NCBI GenBank assembly: GCA_017521285.1
Contig: JAFXDG010000096.1
Coordinates: 1 to 44,550 of the forward strand
Length of the DNA: 44,550 bases
Direction: 5' to 3'
Source of the DNA: Bacteroidaceae bacterium
GTDB lineage: Bacteria > Bacteroidota > Bacteroidia > Bacteroidales > Bacteroidaceae
The stretch's first letter is position 1, and each line of letters starts with the position of its first letter. This document shows, piece after piece, positions 26,035 through 43,798 of the stretch. The position numbers and the translations under genes were made by a program. Below the pieces are notes generated by a model that saw only the letters and a program-made list of their open reading frames with translations, was not told the DNA's origin and made no database searches.

Positions 26035-26230
26035 TTTTTAGACGCAGATGAAGCGAATAAATGGGTTCAAAGGTCAAAGGGCGAAGGTCGAAGGACTAAG
26101 GTCAAAGGGCGAAGGTTGATGCATTGATGCGTTGAGGGGATTCACCGCCATCGCCATCAACCATCGCCATCAGCCATAGCTAAAAGGCGAATAACGGTTA
26201 TAATTTATCCGTATCATCTGCGTCTAAAAA
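26035..26230. repeat. Inverted-repeat element with internal direct repeats
   Basis: A perfect 17-bp inverted repeat, TTTTTAGACGCAGATGA at 26035-26051 and its complement at 26214-26230, flanks 162 bases. Pairing continues imperfectly for 11 more bases inside. The interior holds a 19-bp direct repeat (26070-26088 and 26098-26116) and a run of CCATCGCCATCA-like units (26145-26175). It fills the gap between convergent genes and marks the edge between the carbohydrate locus and the AT-rich island. It may be a MITE-like or terminator element. Confidence 0.7.
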
Positions 26231-26232
26231 AA

Positions 26233-27513
26233 TCAAATATCCAATAGCATATATGGCAATCTTGAATCTATCATTTCTTGAGGTACACCACAATTCCTGG
26301 CAACCTCAGGCCATCTTGACACAGTCTCACAAACTTTATCGATAATCTCTGCAGCATTTTTTATATTATTGGATGCAGCACACGCAAGGAGGTCTTTTCT
26401 CGTAACATTATCGAATTTACCATTTATTGACATCTGATGGGTATCAGTCCATGCCCCTTTAGGATTGTATGCAAAGCCAATATCATAGGCTGGCGACAAC
26501 CTCCATTTTCCCTTCTTGTCCATAAGGAAAGATATATTCTTTGTGTGGTCATCTTGATTTCGTATTACCACATTAAAAACCATACGAAGAAACATTTCTT
26601 CAGCTTGAGAATATGGCAAACGAAGACGCCTCATGACGTTAAACGCTTGTTCATACGAGAATGCTCTTCGAAGATGAAAATCATAATGAGCAATCCCACA
26701 TAATGTTTGCATGTGAACTTTTTCACCGCCGATTCTGTCAAAACGCTTGGTCAAAAAATGTGCCCTTCCATTTTCCTCAACCAATGAACACTCAGTCATT
26801 TCAATACCACATTCTTTCACCAACTGCGAGAATGAGTATTCAAGTCTTCCAAAATTCTCAGTTTCCTTAAACCCCGCTTCTGCAGAAACACCATCTAATT
26901 TTATAAGGTAGTAGTCAAAACCTTTGGGGGCATCAACTTGACCAGAACGAACTTCACCAGTTTTTTTATTATATGCAATGATAGCCTTTGCCCGTTGCCC
27001 TCCTGCAGATGTCCCTAAACGTAGGATTTCAGCAATAGCCGTCTTTCTGTCCAAACTTAAATTTATCCCAAAATCTTTCTTATTCAAAAGGGCTTCTCGT
27101 GCAACATCCACCAATGAGTCTATTTCTATTCTCATATCTGAATTCGAGTTTGCCCCTATAGCAGGTTCAAATTCCAGTGCCCCCATACATCGTTTTCCTA
27201 AGAAACACAAGGTTTCAATCGGATTACCAGAAGTCCTCCCTGTCAATGCGAGCCATTGTTCAAACAATGCCCGACCATACGTGTCTGGCAATGAATCAGC
27301 CAGCATGCCTGGCAAACCATAAAAAACCTCTCGGTTAAGATTTCCAAATGAGTATATACGCCCCTGTTGTACGGGCATCATCAAAGGCGAAGGTTCAATA
27401 CCTTTACCTATAAACTGTGAGTCGTATTCAAAGCGAGCAACATCATACATGCTATCCCACCTGAATGTGCCGACAGTATCGCCATACATTATCACCTTTG
27501 CAACATCTACCAT
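26233..27513 (-). CDS. hipA: HipA-family serine/threonine kinase toxin
   Basis: A 426-residue kinase of the HipA type, which in known systems phosphorylates an aminoacyl-tRNA synthetase and induces growth arrest. The N-terminal HipA-coupling region ends near residue 110 (GMLADSLPDTYGR and FLGKRCMGALEFEP motifs). The kinase core shows GTSAGGQRAKAI (phosphate loop), FLTKRFDR, the catalytic RNQDDHTKNIS loop with Asp321/Asp322, and the metal-binding LSPAYDIGF motif. No key residue is missing. The start overlaps the HipB stop by 7 bases, the usual translational coupling of antitoxin and toxin. It is convergent with the dehydrogenase gene across an inverted-repeat element. Confidence 0.92.
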   Translation of the reverse strand: MVDVAKVIMYGDTVGTFRWDSMYDVARFEYDSQFIGKGIEPSPLMMPVQQGRIYSFGNLNREVFYGLPGMLADSLPDTYGRALFEQWLALTGRTSGNPIETLCFLGKRCMGALEFEPAIGANSNSDMRIEIDSLVDVAREALLNKKDFGINLSLDRKTAIAEILRLGTSAGGQRAKAIIAYNKKTGEVRSGQVDAPKGFDYYLIKLDGVSAEAGFKETENFGRLEYSFSQLVKECGIEMTECSLVEENGRAHFLTKRFDRIGGEKVHMQTLCGIAHYDFHLRRAFSYEQAFNVMRRLRLPYSQAEEMFLRMVFNVVIRNQDDHTKNISFLMDKKGKWRLSPAYDIGFAYNPKGAWTDTHQMSINGKFDNVTRKDLLACAASNNIKNAAEIIDKVCETVSRWPEVARNCGVPQEMIDSRLPYMLLDI

Positions 27514-27851
27514 TCTGATTCCTCCTTATTAGCGTTAATGCTCCCCATAGCGCGTTTTCTTTTATTTTTCTTTGCAGAGTTTACCATATCATAATACTCA
27601 CTTGGGCTTAATTGTTCTTCTTCGCAAAGATGATAAATTTCATCAAGCATACCGAGCGTCCTTAAGACACGAAGAAAAGTATCAAAAGACTTTATTTCTC
27701 CAGCTTCAATTTTCTGAACAGATGAGCGTGAGACTGATGCGGACTCCGCCAAACTATCTTGAGTTATATTTTGCTTGAGTCTGATTGATTTAATTTTTTC
27801 TCCAATCCTTTTTTGGATTTGAGAATCCGAGAGAGAATAAATACTATCCAT
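27507..27851 (-). CDS. hipB: HipB-family antitoxin, XRE-type DNA-binding protein
   Basis: A 114-residue protein with an XRE helix-turn-helix at about residues 15-65: IGEKIKSIRLKQNITQDSLAE, then the recognition helix SRSSVQKIEAGEI. The Lys/Arg-rich C-terminal tail (KKNKRKRAM) is unusual for HipB and may add DNA or toxin contacts. The start MDSIYSL at 27851 is preferred; an in-frame ATG at 27890 lies at the -7 promoter box and is unlikely to be used. It should repress its own promoter and neutralise HipA, whose gene overlaps by 7 bases. Confidence 0.88.
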   Translation of the reverse strand: MDSIYSLSDSQIQKRIGEKIKSIRLKQNITQDSLAESASVSRSSVQKIEAGEIKSFDTFLRVLRTLGMLDEIYHLCEEEQLSPSEYYDMVNSAKKNKRKRAMGSINANKEESEW

Positions 27852-27879
27852 AATGATTTCATTTAAAAGCTTTACAGTG

Positions 27880-27887
27880 CAAATATA
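27880..27887 (-). promoter_or_regulatory. -7 element of the hipBA operon
   Basis: On the minus strand it reads TATATTTG, 28 bases upstream of the HipB start at 27851. The surrounding AT-rich sequence offers no clear -33 box. Confidence 0.5.
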
Positions 27888-28373
27888 CAAATAAAGATTT
27901 AAAATAAAAGCATTACACGCGTTTTTTTATACTCCTTTGGTAGTTCCTTTTCAAATTCATATCACCTTTTTTAAATTCATCGCATTGCAAATGCTTATAC
28001 TCACGGACTTCACGTTGCAAACGCGAAGAGACGGTAGTTGGTGTGGAAAGTTCTTTTTTGCAATTCCTTTACATCCCCTGATTTTATTCTTATGGAAGCC
28101 TTTGGTAAGGACAAGGAGGATTACAAGACTATTGGAACATTCCTCATGTTCACGGCAGACAAGAAAGAGAACCTATCCAACAGCGAATACCGTAAGGCAT
28201 CCCGTGAGGTGAGTGACATTGCCATCGGCAGGTATGAACAGACTCAGAAGCGTAGGTGCTCAATGAAATTGTAAATTTATTATTAGGCAGGTAAAAACGA
28301 AGATTTAGATTGATTTTTACCAGCTTCTACTTTTAAGTCGAAAAAAAGCAGTATTTTTGCAAAAAATCATCGC
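27888..28373. other. Intergenic region with a possible coding remnant
   Basis: A plus-strand open frame from ATG 28092 to 28274 would encode 60 residues of protein-like composition (KDKEDYKTIGTFLMFTADKK onward) with no ribosome-binding site or family I recognise. It may be the remains of a mobile-element gene. A -7 element TATTTTTG at 28352-28359 precedes the next gene. The rest shows nothing I can interpret. Confidence 0.3.
28352..28359 (+). promoter_or_regulatory. -7 element of the AlbA_2 gene
   Basis: TATTTTTG, 14 bases before the ATG at 28374, which implies a very short 5' leader. Confidence 0.5.
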
Positions 28374-29939
28374 ATGACAGAAAAGGAGTTAATTGAATTG
28401 AGGAATGGAGCTGAAGTTACTAAAGTTCAGTTCAAAGAGCGTGTGTTGGATAAATACGATACGGCATGCGAGTTGGTCGCATTCTCAAATAGTCGCGGAG
28501 GAAAGATTATTGTTGGCATCAATGATAAGACAGGAAATATCAATCCTCTATCTTTTGTTGAAATACAGGAAACCACAAATCTGCTGACAAATCTAGCGAG
28601 TGAGAATGTCTTTCCCAATATCTTAATCAGTGTAGATACTGTCAAAGTTGATGGTGGACAAGTTGTGATTGCCACTATTCCAGAAGGTAAAAATAAGCCT
28701 TACCACGATAACAAAGGTATTGTGTGGGTGAAAAATGGTTCAGATAAACGAAGAGTTTTCGATAATGCAGAATTAGCAGAAATGATGACAGAATGTGGCA
28801 GTTTTCATCCCGATGAAGCCGCTGTTAACGATTCTTCAATTGACGACCTTGATATTGAAACAGTTAAGTTGTTTCTCTTGGGAAGATTCGCTTCTCGTTT
28901 TGAGAATGTTGGTTTGTCCGAAGTAGATTTACGTAAACAGCCCATTGAGAAGTTAGTTGATATTATTGGTGAAGGTTTCACATTAGAGAAACTATTTAGA
29001 AATTTACGCTTCATTCGCCCAGATGGAAGGCTTACAGTGGCAGCAATGCTGCTGTTTGGTAAAGCTCCGCAACGTTGGCTACCTGTTCTTACTACTAAAT
29101 GTGTTTCGTTTTATGGAAACAATGAAAGTGGCATGACTTTCCGTGATAAAGTAGATGGCGAGGCAATGGAGGGTAATCTACTTCATCAATTTAGTTGCGT
29201 AATGGATTTTTTCCGCCGGAATTTACGAATGGTTCAAGACGGAGAAGAGTTTAATCAGCAAGGCAAAATAGAAATACCTATCATTGCATTGCAAGAATTG
29301 GTAGTCAACTCAATGGTTCACCGTTCGCTCGTCCGTCAATGTCCGATTCGGATTTTTATTTTTGATGATCGAGTGGAAATCCACAGTCCAGGCACACTTC
29401 CGGGTGGATTAACAGTCAAGGATATTGAGGCTGGAACATCGTTACCCCGTAATAAATTCTTGTTCAGTAATGCTATTTTCTCATTACCGTATGCTGGTAT
29501 AGGTACGGGTATCAGACGGTGTATAAGTCTCGGAATAAAACCGGAGTTCAAGAATGATGAAAATCTGAACGAGTTTTTTATTATCATTCCTCGATTAGAT
29601 GAGAATGGTAACCAAGTAACTAAGTCAGATGAGAAAAGTAACCAAGAACAGGGCGAAAATGGTAACCAAGTAACCAAGTCGGACGAGGAAAGTAACCAAG
29701 TGAAAGGCGAAAAGGAACTAAGTCATCCTAAATTGACAAAGCAGCAAGAAGATATACGAAATTTCTGCTCTATACCACGCACTGCACAAGAAATTATGGA
29801 TAGATTGGGCATTACCAACCAATCTAAAAATCGTCAAAGACATATACAGCCACTTTTGGATATGGGCGTTTTGGAAATGACAAACCCAGAGAATCCTACG
29901 GCCAATAATCAAAGATATCGAAGACCTCCCAAGCAATAG
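28374..29939 (+). CDS. Schlafen/AlbA_2-domain DNA-binding protein with GHKL ATPase-like domain
   Basis: A 521-residue cytoplasmic protein. Residues about 5-130 form an AlbA_2 domain (ELVAFSNSRGGKIIVGINDK; IPEGKNKPYH; VWVKNGSDKRR). Residues about 300-400 form the HATPase_c_4 region (ELVVNSMVHRSL, IFDDRVEIHSPGTLPGG). A linker at about 410-450 contains a duplicated GNQVTKSDE unit, and the C-terminus (about 455-521) looks like a winged helix (RTAQEIMDRLGI). This is the layout of proteins often called RecG-like or transcriptional regulators; relatives occur in phage-defence and stress loci. The gene stands alone, with its own -7 box and a good terminator, in the AT-rich island beside hipBA. Confidence 0.82.
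   Translation: MTEKELIELRNGAEVTKVQFKERVLDKYDTACELVAFSNSRGGKIIVGINDKTGNINPLSFVEIQETTNLLTNLASENVFPNILISVDTVKVDGGQVVIATIPEGKNKPYHDNKGIVWVKNGSDKRRVFDNAELAEMMTECGSFHPDEAAVNDSSIDDLDIETVKLFLLGRFASRFENVGLSEVDLRKQPIEKLVDIIGEGFTLEKLFRNLRFIRPDGRLTVAAMLLFGKAPQRWLPVLTTKCVSFYGNNESGMTFRDKVDGEAMEGNLLHQFSCVMDFFRRNLRMVQDGEEFNQQGKIEIPIIALQELVVNSMVHRSLVRQCPIRIFIFDDRVEIHSPGTLPGGLTVKDIEAGTSLPRNKFLFSNAIFSLPYAGIGTGIRRCISLGIKPEFKNDENLNEFFIIIPRLDENGNQVTKSDEKSNQEQGENGNQVTKSDEESNQVKGEKELSHPKLTKQQEDIRNFCSIPRTAQEIMDRLGITNQSKNRQRHIQPLLDMGVLEMTNPENPTANNQRYRRPPKQ
29601..29709 (+). repeat. In-frame duplication in the AlbA_2 protein linker
   Basis: Two diverged copies of about 51 bases start with GAGAATGGTAACCAAGTAAC and the corresponding GAAAATGGTAACC segment at about 29656; each contains further AGTAACCAA repeats. 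The unit encodes a GNQVTKSDExSNQ motif. Confidence 0.7.
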
Positions 29940-30031: not shown

Positions 30032-31963
30032 TTATATGGAGGCATAAATGTTATGTATTAAATCCACATAGTAATTTTGTTTTTGACTTCTATATTTCCT
30101 CATCATCCATTCATCAAATGACTGAAAAGGACTCATTTCCAATCTTTCATCGTTATTTTTGTATTGACACTCCGAGTAAAAGCGTTCAAAATAATAGCCA
30201 AAACCTTTGTCTTGAAAATAAGTATCATACAAGAATAAGGTCTTTATTGTCATTACTATCAGTGGACGGCACTTATTATGATAAGACTTTATACCTTTTT
30301 CTTTGAGACATTTGCTATACCATTCATTGGCAATGTCTGATAAGGGTGATTGCATTATTTCGCTATTTTCAAGAACGAGAACTGGATAGTATATAAGATT
30401 CTCATCCTTTATTGTATCCCAGGCAAAAACGCCTTCTTCGATAGTCTTAATATGATTTACTAATTGCCCAACACCTTCATCACGAGGAATTTTTAGAGAT
30501 TCTTTATTTCCATCTTTCCCTATCTTCCAACGCTTTAAGTATAACTTATTGGAAAGTTCTTCAATAATCCCATCAGTATTAGGATTAGATTTTAGGTCTC
30601 CATTTAATTTTATTGCTTTACACTCAAAGATGTAAATATTCAGTTTCTCACGAAGGTAAAAATCTGGTTGACCTACAACTTCTTTATCGTCAACATACTC
30701 TGGTCGTGATATATCATCTTTGCTAGGAAAACATGCATCAATACATCTATCCCTTATACAATTAAGCATCGTGTGGTCAAATAGATGTTTCTCGACAAAT
30801 ACCTCTTTGAAGAACTGACTATACGACTTGTCTTTGTATTTGAGCTTATAGGGCATCAAGTCGAAATAAATGCTATTGTAAAGCCTATCTATCATGAGAG
30901 GAATATTGTATAACATGTATTTTGACGTCTCCATTTGTATTAACGGTCGTGCTCTGAATGTTGTAAAGTCTCTGTTTCTGTCTCCAACATCTTCATTTAT
31001 TTCAATGTAATCATATTGGTTGATAGCAATAGCGTCAACGACATTCCGGGTAATGAGATTATCCTTATCTTGTTTTTCAATATCAAGAACTCCAGCTCCA
31101 TCTTTCAATGCAAGCGCACTAAGGGCCGCAATTGTCAGATAGTATTCTTGCCATTTCTCTATTTTAAATATTTCCAAGAATTTATCATACATATGCTTGT
31201 ATTCTTCTCTTGATGTTATGAAATCAAAGAACACCTTAGCATAATACATCTGTTCAGAAAGAGCTAACTCCTCGTTAAAATTAGTAAATTCATTTGTTGC
31301 ATAAAGAGTTGCATACATCATTCTCGATAAATCATTTTTTTTCTTGCTTGGAATATATGAAGCGACTTTTTGTTCGTTTATGGCGAGAAGAATATCAAAA
31401 GCTTTTGCTTCTGCTATGTAATCTGGATAATATTCAAATTGCTCTTTATGTGAAACACCAAAGGTGAGTTTTAAGAATTCTAAAAGAGTACGTGTAGAAG
31501 AATATGATACACTAGAAGGTGATTTCTTTTCCCTCTTAATATATTCTAATACATATCTCATCCTCTCATCGGAGTATTGGGACATATACGAGAAGAAAGG
31601 ATGCTTATCCATATCCGAAATTAAACACTTTCCAAAGTTCCGTCCAAGCACCAATACCATTTTGATGAGCATTTCTCTTGAGAATTTCTTTATCTCATCA
31701 ATAAGGTTAAGCATTTGCCATGGATATACATTTGTATACTCTAACAGTAACAGAGGATGAAATGACTTACCCGATATACAGTCTGTTATGCTGATAGATT
31801 CTCCCTTGTACATCTGTCGATGAGTATTGAAAGAAGTGTTATGCAAATAATGATTGGTGTTTTTCCGTTTCCTATTTGCCTTCTTCCTCTTCCTACTTCC
31901 TTTTATGGAACAGAGAATGTTGTGCTTCTTGTTTTTTAATCGGCGTATTCTTCGATGCTTCAT
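30032..31963 (-). CDS. Uncharacterised protein with PD-(D/E)XK nuclease-like motif
   Basis: A 643-residue cytoplasmic protein with no signal peptide and a very basic N-terminus (about 45 residues rich in Lys/Arg, starting MKHRRIRRLKNKKHN) that could bind nucleic acid. The middle is helical without known motifs. Near the C-terminal third, Asp434 (GQPDFYL) followed by Glu447-x-Lys449 (IFECKA) makes the PD-(D/E)XK nuclease signature, with the expected strand spacing of 12 residues. It starts one base after the stop of the transglutaminase-like gene, so translation is probably coupled, although that protein is exported. It is the last gene of the seven-gene minus-strand operon. A defence or DNA-processing nuclease is possible; the family was not recognised. 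Confidence 0.6.
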   Translation of the reverse strand: MKHRRIRRLKNKKHNILCSIKGSRKRKKANRKRKNTNHYLHNTSFNTHRQMYKGESISITDCISGKSFHPLLLLEYTNVYPWQMLNLIDEIKKFSREMLIKMVLVLGRNFGKCLISDMDKHPFFSYMSQYSDERMRYVLEYIKREKKSPSSVSYSSTRTLLEFLKLTFGVSHKEQFEYYPDYIAEAKAFDILLAINEQKVASYIPSKKKNDLSRMMYATLYATNEFTNFNEELALSEQMYYAKVFFDFITSREEYKHMYDKFLEIFKIEKWQEYYLTIAALSALALKDGAGVLDIEKQDKDNLITRNVVDAIAINQYDYIEINEDVGDRNRDFTTFRARPLIQMETSKYMLYNIPLMIDRLYNSIYFDLMPYKLKYKDKSYSQFFKEVFVEKHLFDHTMLNCIRDRCIDACFPSKDDISRPEYVDDKEVVGQPDFYLREKLNIYIFECKAIKLNGDLKSNPNTDGIIEELSNKLYLKRWKIGKDGNKESLKIPRDEGVGQLVNHIKTIEEGVFAWDTIKDENLIYYPVLVLENSEIMQSPLSDIANEWYSKCLKEKGIKSYHNKCRPLIVMTIKTLFLYDTYFQDKGFGYYFERFYSECQYKNNDERLEMSPFQSFDEWMMRKYRSQKQNYYVDLIHNIYASI

Positions 31964-31964
31964 G

Positions 31965-33416
31965 CTAGTACCATTGTTCTACAATTGGTTTTACATTTAC
32001 ATAGGTTGGCATACACTGACCAATACTAGAACCTATAAATGTCGGATCACAAATAATATAAGTTTTTCCATCATAAGTGTATGCGTCACCATATATTGAA
32101 GAATCATTGAAGCAAACAGCTGTACACTCATGCCCTGGATACTGAACGAGATGAACATCCAAACCTAAAAGATTGTGAACTAAGAACGCATAAAATACAG
32201 AACGGTCTTCGCAGTCATTCTTTGGATAATAGAAATTCTCTTCTATAAAATACGGCTTTTCGTATCCATGCTGAGAACCATCTGTAGCATAGTCGAAAGC
32301 ATATTGAACAAAATGTAGTAATGCATTTGCGGCTTGCTTTTTAGACATTCCGGATATTTGAGACCTTAGTTGTTCTAGAATATTTCTGTAAAATGGAGGC
32401 GTCACCTGGGACTTAGCATAATAGAGAACGTCCATTTGAGGGTAATGACGCAACATTTCCATCATGCCACTATTTACAGTTCCTGTTATATGCAATCTGC
32501 CGTCTGATAATGTACGGGTTTTATCAGTTCCTTTATTCAGTTTTAGGTTTTGATCGGCATATACTAAATCGATAAACCTCCCTTTATATGCATTGTCAGG
32601 TAGTTCGCAGGTATATATTCTCATTGATGATTCAGAAACAGGAGCAATATTATCACGAAAAACGTAATACTTTGAACCTTCAATATCTAAATAGCTTCGC
32701 TCATATATCTTTTGTATAAACGGAACAAGCAAGAGTAATTGGCTATTCGTTCTTGCAATGCGCACATCATACCCCATATGAGTAAGAAGGAAATGTTGTA
32801 GGACTATTCTGTCAGAAGAAGAATCTGATTTCAGCAAAGTATCTGTATAACTTCTGATTAGTTCAAAAGTAAACCATTCATTTAGTCCAAGAGAAGATGA
32901 TATTAGCTTCAATGAATTGAGAACATCCTTTGTGTCTCCCTTTTGATATTTCTTCCATGTCGCGGATATTGAACAGGGTTCCATTGAAGAGACATTATGT
33001 GTTGTCAGTTTGACCGCATTTACCTCAACACCATAAAAAGTAAATTTCAACTTAGGAGCAATAGTGGGCTTTATCGGGGCTATTGGCTCTGTCGGTTCCT
33101 TAGGCACTGGAGTAATAGGTTCTTCATTCGGTATTACTATTGGTTCTGGGACAACTACAGGTGTAGGTGAAACTGGAACTTCTTCCACTTTGGGTACAAT
33201 TACTGGTTTTGGTGTTTCATCACGCTTAACGCCACGAAATACCAGAAACTCTTTCCAAACGCCATCAAGAAAATTTGCATAATCTTCTAATATGCTTTTG
33301 CGGAATCCTTGATAGTCATTCAAGAGGCTTTCTCTGTATGTCTTATAGTCACTATTTATATCCTGTGCATGAGACGCAGATGTTATAAATAATAGTAGGA
33401 AGAAATATTTTCTCAT
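31965..33416 (-). CDS. Exported transglutaminase-like cysteine protein
   Basis: A 483-residue protein with a signal peptide (residues 1-17, ending ASHAQ), a helical segment, and a Pro/Val/Glu-rich linker (about residues 70-120) that would span the envelope or extend from the surface. The C-terminal domain carries the transglutaminase-like triad: Cys402 in KNDCEDRS, His429 in YPGHECTA and Asp457 in YIICDPTF. Such folds can be proteases, amidases or cross-linking enzymes. Upstream, the gene for an LPP20-like protein ends 18 bases before this one; downstream is the nuclease-like gene after one base. The substrate may be a partner in the same operon or peptidoglycan; this is inference. Confidence 0.75.
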   Translation of the reverse strand: MRKYFFLLLFITSASHAQDINSDYKTYRESLLNDYQGFRKSILEDYANFLDGVWKEFLVFRGVKRDETPKPVIVPKVEEVPVSPTPVVVPEPIVIPNEEPITPVPKEPTEPIAPIKPTIAPKLKFTFYGVEVNAVKLTTHNVSSMEPCSISATWKKYQKGDTKDVLNSLKLISSSLGLNEWFTFELIRSYTDTLLKSDSSSDRIVLQHFLLTHMGYDVRIARTNSQLLLLVPFIQKIYERSYLDIEGSKYYVFRDNIAPVSESSMRIYTCELPDNAYKGRFIDLVYADQNLKLNKGTDKTRTLSDGRLHITGTVNSGMMEMLRHYPQMDVLYYAKSQVTPPFYRNILEQLRSQISGMSKKQAANALLHFVQYAFDYATDGSQHGYEKPYFIEENFYYPKNDCEDRSVFYAFLVHNLLGLDVHLVQYPGHECTAVCFNDSSIYGDAYTYDGKTYIICDPTFIGSSIGQCMPTYVNVKPIVEQWY

Positions 33417-33434
33417 AAAATCTTTTCATTTACT

Positions 33435-35255
33435 CTAGAAATAACCCAATCCAAACAATCCAACTTCAGGGTCTGGTTCCGGCTGCCATGTACGAACTTT
33501 GATGATAGGTTCTTTTCTGTCATTCAAATCTACTTGGATGTATAGGTAACCCTCATCACCATAGTTTGTTGAATAGTAATCCTGCTTTATTTGAATACCA
33601 TATTCTTCTCCATCTTTTGCCTTACGAACATCATTATTAGCAAAACGAATGTTGACAAATTCATTGGCACGAAAACAAGCCTCCAGATTCTTTAGATATT
33701 GCTCTTTGCTATATTGGGTTCTCCGAACATATTTATTATTGCGATATGTAACAGGACCATCTTTGTGAGGATTTACAGCTTCAAATCTTTGAGCTACATG
33801 GCCAACTATGATTACTGCATCATCATCAAAAATGCTACGTAAATAATCAATACGTTCAAGGGCATATGCTGTCTTGTAATTTTCAAGGAACTCCATTATT
33901 GTTTGGCGAGCCTCAATTGACCATGCACCACGACTTATAATATCGGATTTTGCTTTTGCATCTAAGCCAAAGGCTATACAATCAATCTTTTTATCCTCAT
34001 TAAAAGTAAAAACAATGTCCTCCACAAAGTTAGTTCTCACACCTTTCTTGAATGAAAACGACATTTGAATGCTTCGAGCAACAACATTATCGCCAAACTG
34101 ATAGAATGCTAATTCATTTGTATTGAGAATTCGCGCACTTCCATATTGGATGAGTCGCTTAAACATATCTTTGCCATCCTCTGTAAAATAATCTTGGATA
34201 GTATCGTATGACTTTGTTTTGATAGTTTCGACAACGTAGCTCAATATCTCTCTGTAAGGTTTCTCGTCTGCTACAGGTGAAATAGTAGCATTCTTCTTAG
34301 ATGCTTGTTTAAGTAGCACCTCTGTCTTGTCTGTGGTAGAGGGTTTCTCCTTTCTTGTCTGCAGATTAACACGTGAGCCTCGAAATGCTCCTACTTTAAT
34401 TACATTAAGTACACTTTTAATCTCTTGATTGATATGTGCTTGGCCACGATAAGCGTACTCGTAATTAATTTGGATATTTTCAGGAACAATACCAGAAGCA
34501 AATTCCATAGTTCCTCGTCCATTCTTTACGCTGGCAATGTTACTCCAATTGCGTCCGTCAAAATATGTAAAGTCAAGACTACTGACTGGCTCACCGTTGT
34601 GCGTAAACATTAAATCAACGTTTGTTCCATCATTAGCTGCAATCTTTACTTCAAGGTCATCAAATATATTGTCCATCCTTTCTGGAATCCAAGTCAAAGG
34701 ATGTATATTATTTCCTGTTTCTTCGTCAGTATATTGTATCTCAGCAGGTCTCTGAACTGACTTTAATAAAGAGTATGCCCAATAGTAGTTTCTAAGGGCA
34801 TCATCAATCTTTCTATTTTCTTCGGCAATCATACCGAGTCGGATATGCTCTTTGAGAGTACGAATACGTCCTTCAAAGATTTTGTTCAGCTCCGATCGTT
34901 TAATAAAACGCCCAATATGCGCTTCATCAGGGTTATTGTCAATAACCAAACGTTCTGTATTTGTTAAAGTGGCAGAAGAGTATGTCTGTACTTTGAGGTT
35001 GGCATAACTCTGTGCATCGAGTACACCATTTGTCGATTTTTCGTCTTCAGTTAAAATGAAATCACTACTTACAGCAATCGATATTTTACTGATTAATGCG
35101 GCGAGAGCTTGTTGGTCTGCTTCCTCTACAGTAGCTCCCCATCCTTCACCAAACAAATAGGTGTCTGAATTGCGCTTTACCTCATCCCAACTTTGTGAGA
35201 AAGCTGGGACGAGGCACATTACGCTAATAATTGATATGATTATTTTCTTAAACAT
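33435..35255 (-). CDS. Exported LPP20-like protein with C-terminal NTF2-like region
   Basis: A 606-residue exported protein (signal peptide about 1-20, ending PAFSQ; no lipobox). Residues about 25-130 resemble the LPP20/FlgT-N-like fold: YLFGEGWGATVEEADQQALAAL, with the typical alternating Ala/Asp helix, then conserved beta strands. Residues about 350-460 and 465-600 look like two related alpha-beta regions; the last (IMEFLENYKTAYALERIDYL, FDDDAVIIVG) is NTF2-like. LPP20-type domains occur in envelope assembly proteins. It lies between a small exported protein (20-base gap) and the transglutaminase-like gene. The domain calls come from pattern similarity and need profile searches to be firm. 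Confidence 0.6.
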   Translation of the reverse strand: MFKKIIISIISVMCLVPAFSQSWDEVKRNSDTYLFGEGWGATVEEADQQALAALISKISIAVSSDFILTEDEKSTNGVLDAQSYANLKVQTYSSATLTNTERLVIDNNPDEAHIGRFIKRSELNKIFEGRIRTLKEHIRLGMIAEENRKIDDALRNYYWAYSLLKSVQRPAEIQYTDEETGNNIHPLTWIPERMDNIFDDLEVKIAANDGTNVDLMFTHNGEPVSSLDFTYFDGRNWSNIASVKNGRGTMEFASGIVPENIQINYEYAYRGQAHINQEIKSVLNVIKVGAFRGSRVNLQTRKEKPSTTDKTEVLLKQASKKNATISPVADEKPYREILSYVVETIKTKSYDTIQDYFTEDGKDMFKRLIQYGSARILNTNELAFYQFGDNVVARSIQMSFSFKKGVRTNFVEDIVFTFNEDKKIDCIAFGLDAKAKSDIISRGAWSIEARQTIMEFLENYKTAYALERIDYLRSIFDDDAVIIVGHVAQRFEAVNPHKDGPVTYRNNKYVRRTQYSKEQYLKNLEACFRANEFVNIRFANNDVRKAKDGEEYGIQIKQDYYSTNYGDEGYLYIQVDLNDRKEPIIKVRTWQPEPDPEVGLFGLGYF

Positions 35256-35275
35256 TTATCCGTTGGGATTGTGAT

Positions 35276-35920
35276 TTAGTTTTCGCTTTTAGGTTCAAAA
35301 CCTTCGCGAACAAAGTCGCTTACCTTCTGGGCATATTTCTGTGCAGCTTCACTTTCTTTGAGTGCATTCTCATAAGCACGGATGCGAGCACGAGTTGCTG
35401 CACTTTCATTTATGATAAAGAATGTCTGCATTTCAAATGTGCCATCCTTGTTCTCTTTAATTACGCTGAAAGACTCTTGCAGTTCACCATTGATTTCCTT
35501 CTCCACAAGGCTCTCATACGCAGCATAGAAGTGGTCGAACTCTGCAGCTACATCATCTGCATTACCTGCGAGGTCACTTACGATACGCCCTTTAACCTTA
35601 CGTCCTGCTTGTTGGGCATAGAGGTTTGCAGCATTAGTAACACAAGTCTGATGACCTACGTTCTTTGACTTGAACTGAGAGCAGGTACCCATAATTTCGT
35701 AGGCTTCCTCACCATCTTTGTTCAACTTCTCGTAATGAGTAAGGAGAACAACATCAAGCGAGCGTGTTGAACCATAGAGTTTCCAACCACCCTTCTTGAA
35801 CTCCTTCATCTTTGTTTTGTACTCTTTCTTAAGGGCCTTTGACAAAGCCTTAGAATTCTGAGCATTCACAACAGGCATCATTAAACAGAATGCCATAAGA
35901 AACATGATAATTTTCTTCAT
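35276..35920 (-). CDS. Small exported protein of unknown function
   Basis: A 214-residue protein with a clear signal peptide (residues 1-20, ending PVVNAQ). The mature part is highly charged and mostly helical: KALKKEYKTKMKEFKKGGWK at the start, a middle ARKVKGRIVSDLAG segment with resemblance to the LPP20-like N-domain of the next gene, and a C-terminal Ala/Glu-rich helix. It has one Cys pair (CSQF, QTC) that could be a disulfide. It lies 20 bases upstream of the LPP20-like gene and 26 bases downstream of the SUMF1 lipoprotein gene. I do not recognise a named family; pairing with the LPP20-like protein suggests they work together. Confidence 0.6.
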   Translation of the reverse strand: MKKIIMFLMAFCLMMPVVNAQNSKALSKALKKEYKTKMKEFKKGGWKLYGSTRSLDVVLLTHYEKLNKDGEEAYEIMGTCSQFKSKNVGHQTCVTNAANLYAQQAGRKVKGRIVSDLAGNADDVAAEFDHFYAAYESLVEKEINGELQESFSVIKENKDGTFEMQTFFIINESAATRARIRAYENALKESEAAQKYAQKVSDFVREGFEPKSEN

Positions 35921-35946
35921 AACTGAAATGTTTTGGAATTAATAAA

Positions 35947-37315
35947 TTATTGACATGTGAGTATTAGTCTAAATCCTATTGTCGGTTCACTATAATTTGA
36001 ATAATAATATGAAGAAGTTGTACATCCGTTAGAATTCGAAGTATAATCTCCGCCATAACAATTACGACTATTTGATGAAGAATTAAGATAGGTGTATTCT
36101 GAAACATTTCCACTCATATCATAAATACCCAATTCGTTTGGAGCTTTTGTTTTTACATTTTGTCTTGTACTTGTATTCGCAGAATACCATGCAACATCAC
36201 CAGGAGTGTTACTACCACTATATGTATAATTTTGGCTCTTATTGCCACCTTTAGCTGCATATTTCCATTGTTCTGCAGTTGGTATAGAAAAATTTAACTT
36301 AGTCGCGTTGTTTATCTTCTCAATACAAGAGATAGCAGCACTATATGAAATTGAACTTATTGGTTTTTGTGACGATGAACTTGAACCATTCATAGCATAA
36401 TATAATGCCTCAGTCACTTCTGTTTCACCTATCAAGAAGAAACCGCCAGAATACCCAGCAACTGGTATCATCTTAAATTCCACACCACCTGCCTTTACAT
36501 ACAATCCATTTCGCCAATTATTATGCGAACTTTCTGAAGGTATTGCCATATATCCACTCTCGCCAACTTTTAGCATATCTGAAGTACAAGTACGAGTGTA
36601 TGCAAAATCAGATCCAACCAAACCAATGTTTCTATCCGAATCAGAGAATGTGCCATATATATAAGATGTGCTACCATTTGATGCAACGGTAGATGTGATC
36701 ATAGCGCTTGACGTTGAAAATTGGTTAATGGCAGGAGCATATGTCGTATAGACAGAAATACCTGTTGTGTATATTTTTGCACCAGAAGTACCAGTGAAAC
36801 GTATGCGTCCAGTTTTAGGTGTTAACGATGCTTGTACAGTCAAAGAACCATTGTTGTAAGCATAGGTTCCATTCAAATCTTCATAAATCTCCGTATTTGA
36901 ATTGAGTGATACGAGTGAAGAACTAGAGAAAGTCGCATTAACAAAGTAACGCGCTTCGCATTTTAGGTTAGAACCTGTTGCAAGATTTCCATCATAGCTA
37001 ACGGACCAGCCCGATGAAGAGTTGTAAGTTGCTTCACCTGGAACAATGTTGCTACCATTGTAGAACGTAATGTAAATCTTGTCGCCATTTGTCCATGACG
37101 AAGTAGTTGTTCGTGTCTGAACTTTTACGCCATTGGATTGTTGGTCGAACCCAACCACATCTCCAACGAACTCCATTGGAATGGTGTGAGTTGTTTGTTC
37201 GTTCTGTGTTTTGTTCTGTTCTAAATCGAGAAAGTCTTCATCAGAACATGATCCTAATGCAAAGCATACGCTTGCTACTAGAAGCCCATTTGTAAAAAAA
37301 ACGAATATGTTTCAT
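35947..37315 (-). pseudogene. Fimbrillin-like/SUMF1-domain lipoprotein, interrupted by a frameshift in a T8 tract
   Basis: The long frame (409 codons, first ATG at 37176) has no signal peptide, but the same frame continues upstream to encode SVCFALGSCSDEDF, an obvious lipobox. The only nearby start codon (ATG 37315) encodes MKHIRFF in a frame that is one base off, with the break at a run of eight T (37294-37301). With seven T the product would be a 455-residue lipoprotein lipidated at Cys23. The N-terminal half (TTTSSWTNGDKIYITF, LTPKTGRIRFTG) looks fimbrillin-like; the C-terminal half (IGETEVTEALYYAM, IPTAEQWKYAAKGG, NELGIYDMSGNVSE) is a SUMF1/FGE-type fold. Only one of the two copper-binding cysteines of true FGE appears to be kept. 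Sequencing error, phase variation or decay are all possible. Confidence 0.75.
37294..37301 (-). other. Homopolymeric T8 tract at the frameshift of the SUMF1 lipoprotein
   Basis: Eight A on the plus strand (T on the coding strand) lie within codons 5-8 of the signal peptide. Loss of one base restores the frame from ATG 37315 to the lipobox and the main body. Confidence 0.8.
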
Positions 37316-37336
37316 ATCAAATTGAATGTTGTTAAT

Positions 37337-39576
37337 TTATTGCCAATTATTATCTGCTCCGTATTCTTTTTTTGAGATAGTTCCAGAGGAATTCTTTGTT
37401 GAGTCATAATTTTTATCAGAACTATATCCTGTAACTGAAACCGTAACGCCAGATCTAGAAGAGTTATCCCAGTCCTTATCGCTTTGATAACCTGAGACAG
37501 AAAGAGTTGTCCCACTAACTGTATTCGTGTCGTAATTCTTATCCGAACCGAATCCTGTTATTGTAAGACTACCTGTGGAATTACCCTTATCATCCCAGTT
37601 GTGGTCATCATCGTAATCTTTTTTAAGGAATGATCCTCCATAATTCAACTGAGTAACATCGAGTGTAAGTGAATAAGTACCCTCTTGAAGGTCGGTCAAT
37701 GCGATAACAATCTTTCCGAAACGAGCATCTGTACCACTATTTTCAGAAGCTGTTACCGTAAAGGTATTAGCCGATTGGGTAATTGACAACCACGATTGAG
37801 ATGTTGTAACAGAATATGTTCCATCGGTTGACACTGTCATTGCTTCAGAAGTACCTCCCTTAGAATAGAATAATACTTCTCGTGTGTCAACTCTAAGATA
37901 ACGGGCATCCTGAGTGACGACCACACGAACCTTTTGATGTGTATGGTTTCAAAAATTAATGTTGCTGTACGACTGTTTACCGATGCATTATCAGATGCGG
38001 TTACCTTTACATCAACATTTCCTGTGCCACTTGTCTTTGACAGGGTCAACCAAGTAGAACCATCTTCCACTTTTGCAGACCAAGAATCGTTTGTAGAGAT
38101 GGAAACATCTATTGCTCCTCCCTTACTTGTATAAGTGAGAAGATTATTTGAGACGGTGAAATATTTTCCTTTCTGGACAACATTGATTATCGCTGATTTA
38201 TCAGCCATAACAACCACAACTTGACCACTTCGCTCATCTTCACTTGTATTCTCAGAAACTGAGACAGACAAGGTCGAATTGCCTGAATTTGAGGTTGGAG
38301 AAATGGTTATCCAACTTTCACTTGCAGATGCAGTCCATGTTCCATCTGTTTGAATATCTATGGTTTGGGTGGATGACTTGTCTTCAAAGTTCAAAACAGT
38401 AGTATTGATATCGAATGTCTTACCAGCCTGAGAGACGCTGACGGCAACATCTATACTCAATCCTATTTGAGTCAAGTGGATGACTCCAGAACGATTGGAC
38501 GTATAGGGATTATCGGAAGCGGTTATCTTTACGAATCCATCACCTTCACCTTGGCTTGGAGATACTGCTATCCATGATGGAGCAGATGAAACAGTCCAAT
38601 TTGTATTACTTAGCACCGAAAGGTTCTGAGATCCACCTGCAGCATTAAATGATAATTCTGATTGTTCTGTTTCTATATAAATTCCACGCTGCCTAACTGG
38701 AATCTGAATGCGTTGAATTCCACCGATAGAAAGATTAACAAACCCAGTTCTTTCACTAGTTGATGTGTTTGGAGATACACTGACTGTCATTGTAGAAGTA
38801 CCAGATTCCCCTGATGTCGGAGAAATATCAATCCAACTTGCAGATGAAGACGCTGTCCATGATGCCTCTGCGTTTATTATTACATTGACAGAACTAGCTG
38901 TATTATTAAATACGAGTGACTCTGTTAATGCATTTATTGAGGCTGGAACTTGTCTAACGGTTATTTTCTGTGAAGCATTTGTAGTTCCATAATGGACAAC
39001 CGAAATGGTCCCTGTTCGGTTCGAATTAGACTCATTCGCAGTTACGGTCAATGTAATAGTATTATCTTTTTGTGAGACAGTAAGCCAATCTGCAGAAGAA
39101 GATGCCGACCAAGAACAGTTTGCTGTCACCGTAATAGTCTCGGTATTCGGAGTACCCGCAAAGTCAATCTCTGACTTTGATAACGATATAATAGGAGTAG
39201 CCCCAGCCTGAGTAACAGAAATGGGAGTTTCATACTTCCAATCACTAACATTGGATTTGAGATAAAATATTCCTGTACGAACATCATCGCCTGACTTGTT
39301 TTCTGTGACACCAACATTAACGGATGCTGATGAAGAACCAGATGTAGGTGAAGTTGATATCCAATCAATTTCATTTTCTATTTCCCATGGTGTTTCTGTG
39401 CTCGTGATTTGAAGAGATTTGCTTGAAGCCAAAGCAGAATATGATAAAGTTGTCGGAGTCACTGCCATATATCGAGGAGTTAGAGTTGGATATAACCCTA
39501 GAGTTTCGTCATACATCTCGGAGCAACCAACAAGAAAAATACTTGTTATAATATATAAGAAAATATGCCGTTTCAT
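37337..39576 (-). pseudogene. BACON-repeat lipoprotein with 21-residue C-terminal repeats, frameshifted
   Basis: A lipoprotein (Cys18 after SIFLVG; Ser-Glu follows) built from about seven BACON domains of some 85 residues, each with the W-x-x-S-P-T-S-G and E-N-x-S-x-x-x-R-x-G hallmarks. These domains bind glycan, mucin or partner proteins outside the cell. The frame breaks in the sixth domain at a run of four A on the coding strand (37932-37935). One extra A would give ...IHIKKVRVVVTQDA and one 746-residue product. The second part adds a seventh BACON domain and then four and a half copies of a 21-residue Asp/Tyr/Gly-rich repeat. It lies 21 bases upstream of the SUMF1 gene start. As given it would produce a truncated protein of 579 residues. 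Confidence 0.8.
37340..37624 (-). repeat. 63-bp tandem repeat encoding a 21-residue unit
   Basis: Four full units and one half unit at the end of the BACON gene. The consensus is (V/I)(T/S)G(Y/F)xSDK(N/D)(Y/W)D followed by x4SGTx2S. The first (KKDYDDDHNWDD) and last (KKEYGADNNW) copies differ at their start. Regularly spaced Asp and aromatic residues suggest a metal- or ligand-binding solenoid or strand repeat. Confidence 0.8.
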
Positions 39577-39577
39577 T

Positions 39578-41173
39578 TTAAAAGAATGCTGTTATACCAA
39601 GTTTAACATTGAACCCTTCACTCCATCCCTTAATCTTTTGAGAAACCTCTGATAATACTGTATATCCATCTGATTTCATAAGATTAAATGAGTATTCTGG
39701 CGATAGGCTTAGTGCAAAATGATTTGCAATTGCAGCTGAGAACCTTAATGAAATAAGAGCACTAGTAGCATAAGCACCATCTGCAGGAGTTACTGTCACT
39801 TCACTTTCCATAGTCTCTTCTAACTTCATAAAGTTTACACCAATCTGAGGCGTTAGACGGAAGCGAGTAGAAATAGGGAAGCCATATCCAATCTTTCCAG
39901 ACATATTCATTGCTGGAGTATAGTTACTAGCAAGAGGTTGAGTGTTATTGCCGCTCCAATAGATTGTTTCACTTTTACCAACACCATAGAGATAAGATGC
40001 TTCGACGTTTACATTACGAATGTAACCGCCAATGGTTGCGCCTATAGTTACAAAAGTTCCTGCTCTTACATTTCCCTCAATATAGAACTCGTTTTTATAA
40101 TTATAAATCTTACTTAGTGCAATATTCACATTGGGATTAGAACTACTTAGCTGCATAGTCCTGACATAGTCCTTATAACCTGTTTTTGTCGCCTTTATAT
40201 TGTATGTGCCTGTTGTCAACTCTTTTGAGCATGGCGAAGTTCCAACATATTCTTTGTCAACAAAAATGTTTGCCCCATGAGGAGAAGTTGTAAACTTATA
40301 GTTAGCGACTCGACTCAAAGATACACTGATGTCAGTCGTTTGATTCTCGTTAATAGTGATAGTTCTTGTCTCCGTGCGATAACCATCTGAAGACACCATA
40401 ACCTCATGCTGGCCAATTTGCAACTCAACAGGCTCCAGTGTAGAACGTCCTATTGAACGTCCATCAACAGACACCTCGGCAGAGTATGGATTCACGTGTA
40501 CACTGAGTTTGCCTTTTATTGGATTTAGGTCATTGACAATCAAAGAATGTTCTTTGTCATTAACTACTATTTGTCCCTCTTTGGGATAATAACCTTTAGC
40601 TTCTACCTTGTAGGTGAACTGTCCGTGTGCCATTTCAAGAGTTGCTTCTCCTCTTGAATCAAGATTTACACTCATACCATTAAGGGACAATGTAGCACTA
40701 GTAGGGATAATCTTAATGGTCAATTTTTGTTTTTTTGTATCATCATAGTTCGTCACGAACACTTGATCATGGGTGATTTTCATGATGTATGTTCTAGCCT
40801 TTTGTATTGTAATAGGAAAATCGTAGTTAGGAAGTGATCCGAGTTGCTGATGGCGGATGCTAATATGCCTAATGCCGAACGGAACCCAAAGCCATATCTC
40901 ACCAACATGGTCATCCTCAACTTTTGTGATACCTGCAGAACCAACATCAAAAGAAAATCCCTTTTGAGTCGTTTGCACACGGATAAGCGCACACTTATAT
41001 CCATTTTGGTCTTCTACTGCATGTCTTCCATTTGCCGTCAAATCTTTTTCATCAAGATAAAATTCTGTGACGGATATATCCTGTGCGTTTGTCGTCAACA
41101 CACAAAAAAACATGAAAACCATCAATATTGAAGGTTTTGAAAAGTGAGACTTTATATCGTAGCCACATTTCAT
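39578..41173 (-). CDS. PEGA-repeat protein with C-terminal outer-membrane barrel
   Basis: A 531-residue exported protein, first gene of the operon. The signal peptide ends at TTNAQ (about residue 31). An unassigned beta domain (about 35-145) precedes three PEGA-type beta domains at about 148-225, 226-295 and 296-360, each with the pattern ...ANIFVDGxxVGTSP...TGxYxVxxxKxGY. From about residue 365 the sequence alternates as membrane-spanning beta strands and ends GITAFF, with a terminal Phe suited to BAM insertion. PEGA domains bind surface ligands or peptidoglycan-linked partners, so this protein could anchor the exported products of the operon at the outer membrane. A second possible start is the ATG at 41122. 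Its stop is one base from the BACON gene start. Confidence 0.8.
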   Translation of the reverse strand: MKCGYDIKSHFSKPSILMVFMFFCVLTTNAQDISVTEFYLDEKDLTANGRHAVEDQNGYKCALIRVQTTQKGFSFDVGSAGITKVEDDHVGEIWLWVPFGIRHISIRHQQLGSLPNYDFPITIQKARTYIMKITHDQVFVTNYDDTKKQKLTIKIIPTSATLSLNGMSVNLDSRGEATLEMAHGQFTYKVEAKGYYPKEGQIVVNDKEHSLIVNDLNPIKGKLSVHVNPYSAEVSVDGRSIGRSTLEPVELQIGQHEVMVSSDGYRTETRTITINENQTTDISVSLSRVANYKFTTSPHGANIFVDKEYVGTSPCSKELTTGTYNIKATKTGYKDYVRTMQLSSSNPNVNIALSKIYNYKNEFYIEGNVRAGTFVTIGATIGGYIRNVNVEASYLYGVGKSETIYWSGNNTQPLASNYTPAMNMSGKIGYGFPISTRFRLTPQIGVNFMKLEETMESEVTVTPADGAYATSALISLRFSAAIANHFALSLSPEYSFNLMKSDGYTVLSEVSQKIKGWSEGFNVKLGITAFF

Positions 41174-42430: not shown

Positions 42431-43798
42431 TTACTCGCAAAGTATTGAGTAATAACTGGTTGCAAATACGGGAATTGTCTTTGGATGCCAATAGAATTTT
42501 CTATTATATCCAAAAGTTGAATTACCAGAATGTTTGACAAGAGATTCTCCTGTCGCATCTGCAACTGTATTTACTCCACTATATAATCCGCCAACTCCTC
42601 CATTACTTATTTTACTGAATGTTCGTCCATGACAGACTATCTCACCATTTTCTATTGTTCCATAAGAATAATGAAAATTACCAGTTTGATCGTTATAGAA
42701 GAGATTAGACAAAAAATCTGCATCCGAACTATAATGCCAGCCAGACATATCAAAATCTCCTCCTCCACCACCTCCATCTTTCACGTGGTTCATAAACTTC
42801 TCTATCTCTTTCGAATTATTTGTATACCAATATGCCAGTCCTGTTGGATCAATGAAATCGATAGGATTACCGATACAATAAGCATAAGGACTCCAAGTGT
42901 ATGACTTTTCACATAAAGGGTCAACAGTATGCCATGCCGGAACGATAGGGTCATATTGTCGGGCATGGATGTCATACCAGTCGAGTCCGTAAGTACGGTC
43001 CAATTCTTTTCCTTCAAATTTATAGGGTTGCAGGTTACTCCCTAAGTCTATCCCACCTATCACTCCACCATAAGGGTAATAATGGGTGGCTTGTTCCGTT
43101 ACACCATTACTGTTTACCACCATGCGGTTGCTACCCTGATAATCCTGAATATAATAGTGACAACCATTTGCATTGCCACTACCACTGAGGGTAAGGTAAC
43201 CACCGATAAAGTGAAGTTTATCCAACGAACCATTGTTTAACCGGATATAGCCACTATAATCTACAGAATCTTTTAACCATACCCCATTCTTCTTTTGTAA
43301 GTGAACCATTCGCAAACGAGTCCCGTCGGCCGCATAGATGTATCTGATAATTCGATTATTGTCGAACGTGATTTCTTTCAGATTTCCCAATAAGTCGTAG
43401 GCAATGTTTGTGATGCCCTTGTTCAAGTCCATCGTCATCGCTCCATTGGCATTGTAGGCATACTCCACAGCCTCATCCGCTCCATCCACAAAAGACGAAC
43501 TGCCGTAATAAGAAGGTTCACCCACACCTGTACCACCAACAGAGAGCTTCTGATTACCGCGGTAAGAGACATTATAGTCATCCATCGTGTCGTAATACAG
43601 TCCTTCCTCTACATCATCCACCACTCCCTGACGATAGGCATACAGCAGAATACCAAAGACAGGATAATAAAGCCTGCCATTTTCATTAAACAGGACGTTG
43701 ATTTCTTTTGAAGGAACAAACGATTCAAGACTGTCAATAATCTCTTCTTCATGTTGCATAAGTGTTTGAAGTTTGTATTCCGCTTGCAATATACGCAT
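42431..43798 (-). CDS. Orphan RHS core fragment with variable C-terminal tip
   Basis: A 455-residue protein holding only the end of an RHS/YD-repeat protein. Residues about 70-320 contain YD repeats (YAYNANGAMTMDLNKGI, YIYAADGTRLR, HYYIQDYQGSNRMV) and the RHS core YKFEGKELDRTYGLDWYDIHARQYDP..DPTG. The tip (about 325-455) begins after DPTG, has a run of six Gly and no toxin motif I recognise. The first 65 residues are not RHS-like and there is no signal peptide, so the gene appears to be a displaced 3' end joined to other sequence. RHS proteins are normally well over 1000 residues. No immunity gene is seen downstream. Confidence 0.8.
   Translation of the reverse strand: MRILQAEYKLQTLMQHEEEIIDSLESFVPSKEINVLFNENGRLYYPVFGILLYAYRQGVVDDVEEGLYYDTMDDYNVSYRGNQKLSVGGTGVGEPSYYGSSSFVDGADEAVEYAYNANGAMTMDLNKGITNIAYDLLGNLKEITFDNNRIIRYIYAADGTRLRMVHLQKKNGVWLKDSVDYSGYIRLNNGSLDKLHFIGGYLTLSGSGNANGCHYYIQDYQGSNRMVVNSNGVTEQATHYYPYGGVIGGIDLGSNLQPYKFEGKELDRTYGLDWYDIHARQYDPIVPAWHTVDPLCEKSYTWSPYAYCIGNPIDFIDPTGLAYWYTNNSKEIEKFMNHVKDGGGGGGDFDMSGWHYSSDADFLSNLFYNDQTGNFHYSYGTIENGEIVCHGRTFSKISNGGVGGLYSGVNTVADATGESLVKHSGNSTFGYNRKFYWHPKTIPVFATSYYSILCE

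Follow-up and report, generated by a model that had tools for sequence, protein, structure and literature searches.

LapG is a periplasmic protease that releases adhesins. It belongs to the BTLCP family (Pfam Peptidase_C93), acts together with LapD and a large adhesin, and is the closest described system to the one reported here. We analysed positions 1 to 44,550 of contig JAFXDG010000096.1 from a gut-type Bacteroidaceae bacterium (assembly GCA_017521285.1), hereafter the window. Seven codirectional genes on its minus strand (41173-30032) encode, in this order, a PEGA-repeat protein, a BACON-repeat lipoprotein, a SUMF1 lipoprotein, two LPP20-type proteins (S1 and LPPl), a transglutaminase-like enzyme (TG) and a PD-(D/E)XK-type protein. 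Like LapG, TG is an exported Cys-His-Asp enzyme with the same catalytic fold, and it too is encoded alongside proteins of surface-binding type. Unlike LapG, it carries a helical tail and a middle part, has LPP20-type partners, and comes from a family in which none of 57 members matches Peptidase_C93. In its proposed working the TG system comes closest to the control of surface adhesins by LapG, although it falls outside that family's profile. We propose, at a probability of roughly 40%, that the operon encodes a cassette of surface receptors or adhesins that can be exchanged, and that a LapG-like enzyme, docked via LPP20-type partners, serves it. The recurrence of the operon is demonstrated, while the substrate and function are inferred.

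Other described systems share single traits with this operon. The type IX secretion system likewise uses SUMF1-fold lipoproteins, GldK/PorK and GldJ, and the SUMF1 protein of the window gave a weak match to the GldK profile (E 3.9e-10). Its 39.6 bits compare with an NCBIfam cut-off of 350, and membership of that secretion system was rejected. Conflict systems with caspase, formylglycine synthase (FGS), PEGA and NTF2 parts have been described (Kaur et al. 2020, PMC7159879). A vocabulary of caspase, formylglycine-synthase fold and PEGA is common to both, while the window operon differs in that, judged by eye, all its products except the nuclease seem to be exported and in that vWA, MoxR and GTPase domains are absent from its Pfam matches. 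LPP20/Tip-alpha-type exported proteins are also known, from which the operon versions differ in that genes for an enzyme and for cargo of surface type accompany theirs. Finally, exchangeable effector or adhesin cassettes follow a logic similar to that of the specificity-swapping surface system that these loci might represent. We found no published description of this gene set in the open-access papers searched.

The enzyme and its LPP20-type partners

TG (31965-33416, minus strand, 483 aa) comprises a helical tail (residues 20-50), a Pro-rich linker, a middle part and a catalytic domain at about 315-483. Its triad (C402, H429 and D457) was invariant in alignments of 20 and of 57 sequences. When the catalytic domain of the AF2 model (pLDDT 89.6, pTM 0.87) was compared with known structures, the nearest match was LapG and the five nearest Foldseek rows were all LapG proteases; pseudomurein endoisopeptidases were also among the fold matches. 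The fold and the invariant Cys-His-Asp triad bear out the earlier note on this DNA, made from the sequence alone, which had called the protein transglutaminase-like. Profile searches gave little: no credible Pfam match was found for S1, TG or the PD-(D/E)XK protein of the window, and Peptidase_C93 was absent from the 14 Pfam families matched by any of the 57 TG members at E 0.05. Transglut_core matched four of the 57 (best 4.1e-4), no NCBIfam match to TG members was relevant, and the TG profile had no match among PDB sequences at E 1. A search for GGDEF in the window's own genome (141 contigs, 86% complete) gave no match, with controls found 8 of 14 times and LapD itself not searched for; a LapD-type switch dependent on cyclic di-GMP (c-di-GMP) therefore seems rather unlikely.

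Two genes upstream of TG encode exported proteins that the earlier note had assigned to the LPP20 type, and both assignments held, LPPl by a near-cut-off Pfam match together with a PDB profile match and S1 by fold. LPPl (33435-35255, minus strand, 606 aa) is a large protein with an LPP20-like N-terminus, the only operon protein matched by Pfam LPP20 (24.8 bits against a cut-off of 25.9, E 3e-5), and its profile matches PDB 4kzs (E 1.3e-5). S1 (35276-35920, minus strand, 214 aa) is small and shows the LPP20/Tip-alpha fold. It has no Pfam LPP20 match, which was obtained for 4 of 18 members of its family, S (best 6.8e-10), and the S profile found one PDB sequence, at E 0.39. Signal peptides and lipoboxes of the operon proteins were assigned by eye, both in the earlier note and here.

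As a single query in 101 genomes, S1 was found at seven places, and all six outside the window lie beside TG. LPPl was found at 27 places, 16 of them partial and mostly covering its C-terminal part, which recurs in other proteins. Ten nearly full-length copies lie outside the window, six near TG and four not. The C-terminal part was also seen, by eye, in clusters of exported proteins in other genomes. In a cluster at L077:7004-16204, a protein that has this C-terminal part in common with LPPl is encoded together with an LPP20-like protein of 226 aa, a MORN-like one and a large tubulin-like one (named by eye).

Recurrence and exchange of subunit kinds

TG homologues were present in 27 of the 101 genomes surveyed, the window's own included. 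In GTDB contigs, at least 582 stretches were confirmed by a scan using two search patterns, so that one gene may count twice. The 80 loci retained from it were mostly from Bacteroidales, including Bacteroides fragilis and Leyella lascolaii. TG was also found on contigs labelled Gammaproteobacteria (L131, L144, L149 and L159), Parabeggiatoa (L145), Latescibacterota (L152), Cloacimonas (L155) and Ignavibacteriales (L164). A phage or plasmid origin was rejected, since none of 12 pattern matches on viral contigs was confirmed and 72,556 plasmid records gave one partial match.

In Leyella lascolaii khD1 (L087) the first six genes recur in unchanged order, with no PD-(D/E)XK gene. Identities to the window are 79% for S1, 70% for LPPl and 51% for TG, and an extra protein of 221 aa without a Pfam or PHROGs match is encoded between SUMF1 and S1. 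Locus L033 has the same six kinds in the order S-LPPl-TG-PEGA-BACON-SUMF1. Since both loci hold the same six, these genes are a real unit. The earlier note had proposed an envelope operon of seven genes, of which the six that recur stand and the seventh, absent from the 114 other TG loci read, does not. Rare co-occurrence of the homologues, which that note had named as evidence against its reading, was looked for and did not come up.

To quantify the association, we used 113 deduplicated TG loci and counted a profile match as near TG when it lay within 7 kb on TG's strand. The flanks and the other strand of the same loci served for comparison, and the expected near-fraction was 0.357; the profiles were seeded in part from TG neighbours, which biases the counts near TG in their favour. 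S matches lay near TG in 81 of 84 cases, in 78 loci, and S was present in 67 of the 92 TG loci with at least 4 kb upstream. Beside it, the second LPP20-type subunit comes in three alternative kinds: LPPl (13 loci), DUF4384 (27) and DUF5683 (15); 25 loci have S only and 33 have none. Matches to these subunits were near TG in 14/18, 28/29 and 18/18 cases, respectively. Among the potential cargo, carboxypeptidase-regulatory domains (29/32, p 1.5e-10), PEGA (17/22, p 8.5e-5) and SUMF1 (10/12, p 1e-3) were enriched near TG; caspase (26/29), WD40 (17/22) and BACON (5/5) were also found there, and the enrichment of Lcl_C was not significant (6/11, p 0.16). Altogether, TG, S1 and LPPl recur together beyond chance, as do, less strongly, the PEGA, SUMF1 and BACON cargo, and the seventh gene does not.

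The cargo differs with the kind of subunit. LPPl is accompanied by PEGA-barrel, BACON and SUMF1 proteins, DUF4384 by caspase and WD40, and DUF5683 by carboxypeptidase-regulatory lipoproteins. The PEGA-barrel N-terminal domain was found in 9/13 LPPl loci, 1/27 DUF4384 loci and 0/15 DUF5683 loci; caspase in 24/27 DUF4384 loci and 0/13 LPPl loci; the carboxypeptidase-regulatory domain in 12/15 DUF5683, 4/27 DUF4384 and 0/13 LPPl loci. The kinds cluster on the TG tree without each forming one group: there are 39 label changes, where shuffling gave 65.0, and at least seven changes are forced for the LPPl label. This fits repeated module exchange, although truncated contigs inflate the count. S and a subunit also occur without TG (L173, L176, L177 and, at a contig end, L175), which makes TG a common component of the system but not an essential one; L174 has DUF5683 and SUMF1 with neither S nor TG.

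Several individual loci deserve mention. On contig C23 of the window's own genome (L031, G000:C23:36500-56400) lies another such system, a DUF4384-type one, with WD40, caspase, carboxypeptidase-regulatory, Lcl_C, S, DUF4384 and TG. In Bacteroides fragilis Q1F2 (L128:8441-13913), a minimal S1-DUF4384-TG set lies directly upstream of the phosphate acetyltransferase and acetate kinase genes, and L138 shows genes of the same sizes and order, a likeness by size and order alone. In L036 (10508-12069), the two proteins encoded after TG are one with a CHASE2 domain and a small one that belongs to no family; in L131, a contig labelled Gammaproteobacteria, TG is followed by a FecR protein.

Cargo genes, the seventh gene and their surroundings

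In the window the intergenic gaps are, in gene order, 1, 21, 26, 20, 18 and 1 bases, the 21-base gap being the distance between the stop codon of BACON and the ATG at 37315 with which SUMF1 starts. The G+C content of the operon stretch is 33-40%, against 43-57% for window positions 1-27,000. The window sequence thus confirms the codirectional arrangement, short gaps (1-26 bases) and AT-rich setting reported earlier. Pfam likewise confirmed the PEGA, BACON and SUMF1 domains, but the BACON and SUMF1 genes of this envelope set are not intact frames as assembled.

The PEGA-repeat protein (39578-41173, minus strand, 531 aa; Pfam PEGA E 6.1e-29) has a C-terminal part resembling an outer-membrane barrel, with an OMP_b-brl match below cut-off (1.7e-4); in its Leyella orthologue, 58% identical, the Autotransporter beta-domain is above cut-off. 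The BACON-repeat lipoprotein (37337-39576, minus strand; Pfam BACON E 2.7e-58) is split by a frameshift: frame 39576-37837 leaves frame near 37,940 and the remainder is encoded in 37924-37337. Both pieces match BACON, and in Leyella a single intact frame of 751 aa spans them (52% and 59% identical).

The SUMF1 lipoprotein (35947-37315, minus strand) matches Pfam FGE-sulfatase (E 1.4e-14, 54.9 bits against a cut-off of 23.3), and its front was read by eye as fimbrillin-like, without a Pfam match. Its open frame (37176-35947) has no start codon ahead of the lipobox, and the ATG at 37315 is in another frame than the lipobox. The assembled sequence therefore does not allow this lipoprotein to be produced together with its signal. 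An eight-T run between ATG and lipobox (37301-37294) is a candidate for phase variation, fixed loss or assembly error. The Leyella counterpart (74% identical) is one intact frame with signal and lipobox in frame. In one operon lipoprotein the lipobox Cys is followed by SDEDF, a sequence similar to SDDDD and SDDFE, which have been published as signals for surface export, in agreement with the outer-surface location proposed in the earlier note.

Block by block, the window and Leyella SUMF1 proteins are 67-87% identical until the last 49 aligned residues, where identity falls to 27% and 11%. This sharply divergent end of SUMF1 fold recalls the target proteins of diversity-generating retroelements, with their tip of C-type-lectin fold. 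Such an element was rejected for the SUMF1 end, as neither the window's own genome nor that of Leyella contains another copy of the 3' end or a template repeat; for the own genome, given its completeness, this absence is not final. The own genome has one RVT_1 match, elsewhere (G000:C90). SUMF1 relatives (39-40% identical) adjoin DUF5683 genes without TG in L173 (6861-17477) and L174 (3039-10098), and their C-terminal ends are strongly different.

The seventh gene (30032-31963, minus strand, 643 aa) encodes a protein without a visible signal peptide. Residues P433-D434, E447-x-K449 and Q500, invariant in four relatives, suggest a PD-(D/E)XK-type nuclease. Neither the single sequence nor a four-member profile found a relative in 114 other TG loci, a set that includes Leyella and 11 other LPPl-type loci and in which some loci end at contig ends. 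Three of 100 other genomes contain a relative, in each case away from TG: one adjoins conjugative-transfer genes (L073), one restriction-type and Abi-like proteins (L074; both by eye), and the third lies in L075. The protein had no phage match and distant matches in seven Hymenobacter plasmids. It is probably an unrelated passenger, and the earlier suggestion that it belongs to the operon and hints at a role in defence, competition or uptake was not upheld.

An RHS-core fragment lies just upstream of the operon (42431-43798; NCBIfam Rhs_assc_core E 2e-16). On the other side, a HipA-type toxin-antitoxin pair (HTH and HipA) and a Schlafen/AlbA-type gene adjoin it (26233-29939), and between the HipA gene and an alcohol dehydrogenase gene a 28-nt inverted repeat (89%) encloses 140 nt with 14-nt tandem units (26035-26230). 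The Bacteroides-type promoter pattern had no match in the operon stretch and five in the window, all at 9.7-16.4 kb. Between 28,000 and 44,550, sigma-70-like sites numbered 71 (53.4 expected) and terminator-like sites 10 (10.3 expected), and these scans say nothing usable on cotranscription. The window had no Rfam match.

Proposed mechanism and alternatives

In the proposed cassette, the BACON and SUMF1 lipoproteins would be exposed at the cell's outer face, where they serve as stalk and tip for binding, and the PEGA barrel would anchor them or pass them across the outer membrane. S1 and LPPl may form a periplasmic scaffold on which TG docks through its N-terminal helix. TG would then cut, or less likely cross-link, the displayed proteins and so set their exposure or release, as LapG does with adhesins. 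The PD-(D/E)XK gene would take no part in this modular outer-envelope system.

The main rivals are fibre cross-linking and general envelope homeostasis. That TG acts on peptidoglycan or general periplasmic proteins, in an envelope-stress or homeostasis module with the cargo as sensors, seems to us rather doubtful. The S-TG pairs of L144 and L159 do adjoin unrelated GGDEF, nitrous-oxide-reductase and DsbA-type genes, and both the pseudomurein endoisopeptidases among the fold matches and the LPPl C-terminal part in exported-protein clusters point the same way, but the kind-specific cargo association in Bacteroidales argues against it. We consider it unlikely that TG cross-links or matures a surface fibre, in which the fimbrillin-like SUMF1 protein and BACON would be joined or processed into a polymer: the nearest structural neighbours are LapG proteases, and 71 of 75 scanned neighbours had no Mfa_like_1 match.

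Mere genomic crowding in lipoprotein-rich Bacteroidales islands, with only S, the subunit and TG belonging together, would account for the Lcl_C result, and BACON rests on five matches. This is improbable, as PEGA, SUMF1 and carboxypeptidase-regulatory domains are enriched relative to flanks and other strand, the cargo is kind-specific, and L033 keeps the gene content in a different order. It is very improbable that all seven genes, nuclease included, form a defence, competition or uptake system. The one-base gap between TG and the seventh gene and the nearby HipA-type and Schlafen-type genes would suit it; the distribution of the nuclease relatives given above speaks against it, and no operon gene had a PADLOC match (E 0.1).

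The exchangeable LapG-like cassette may be part of something wider. Tentatively, and with less confidence than in the cassette itself, the TG loci might represent an undescribed class of envelope machines in Bacteroidales and beyond, in which the enzyme and the LPP20-fold pair form a platform, receptor cassettes are swapped by recombination via the second subunit, and tips diversify quickly. The TG family is large (at least 582 stretches) yet weakly covered by Pfam and without a relevant NCBIfam family. The kind-specific cargo provides a ready list of TG substrate candidates, and if TG processes the surface proteins of its operon, the system would be a counterpart of LapG adhesion control in gut bacteria, probably without c-di-GMP.

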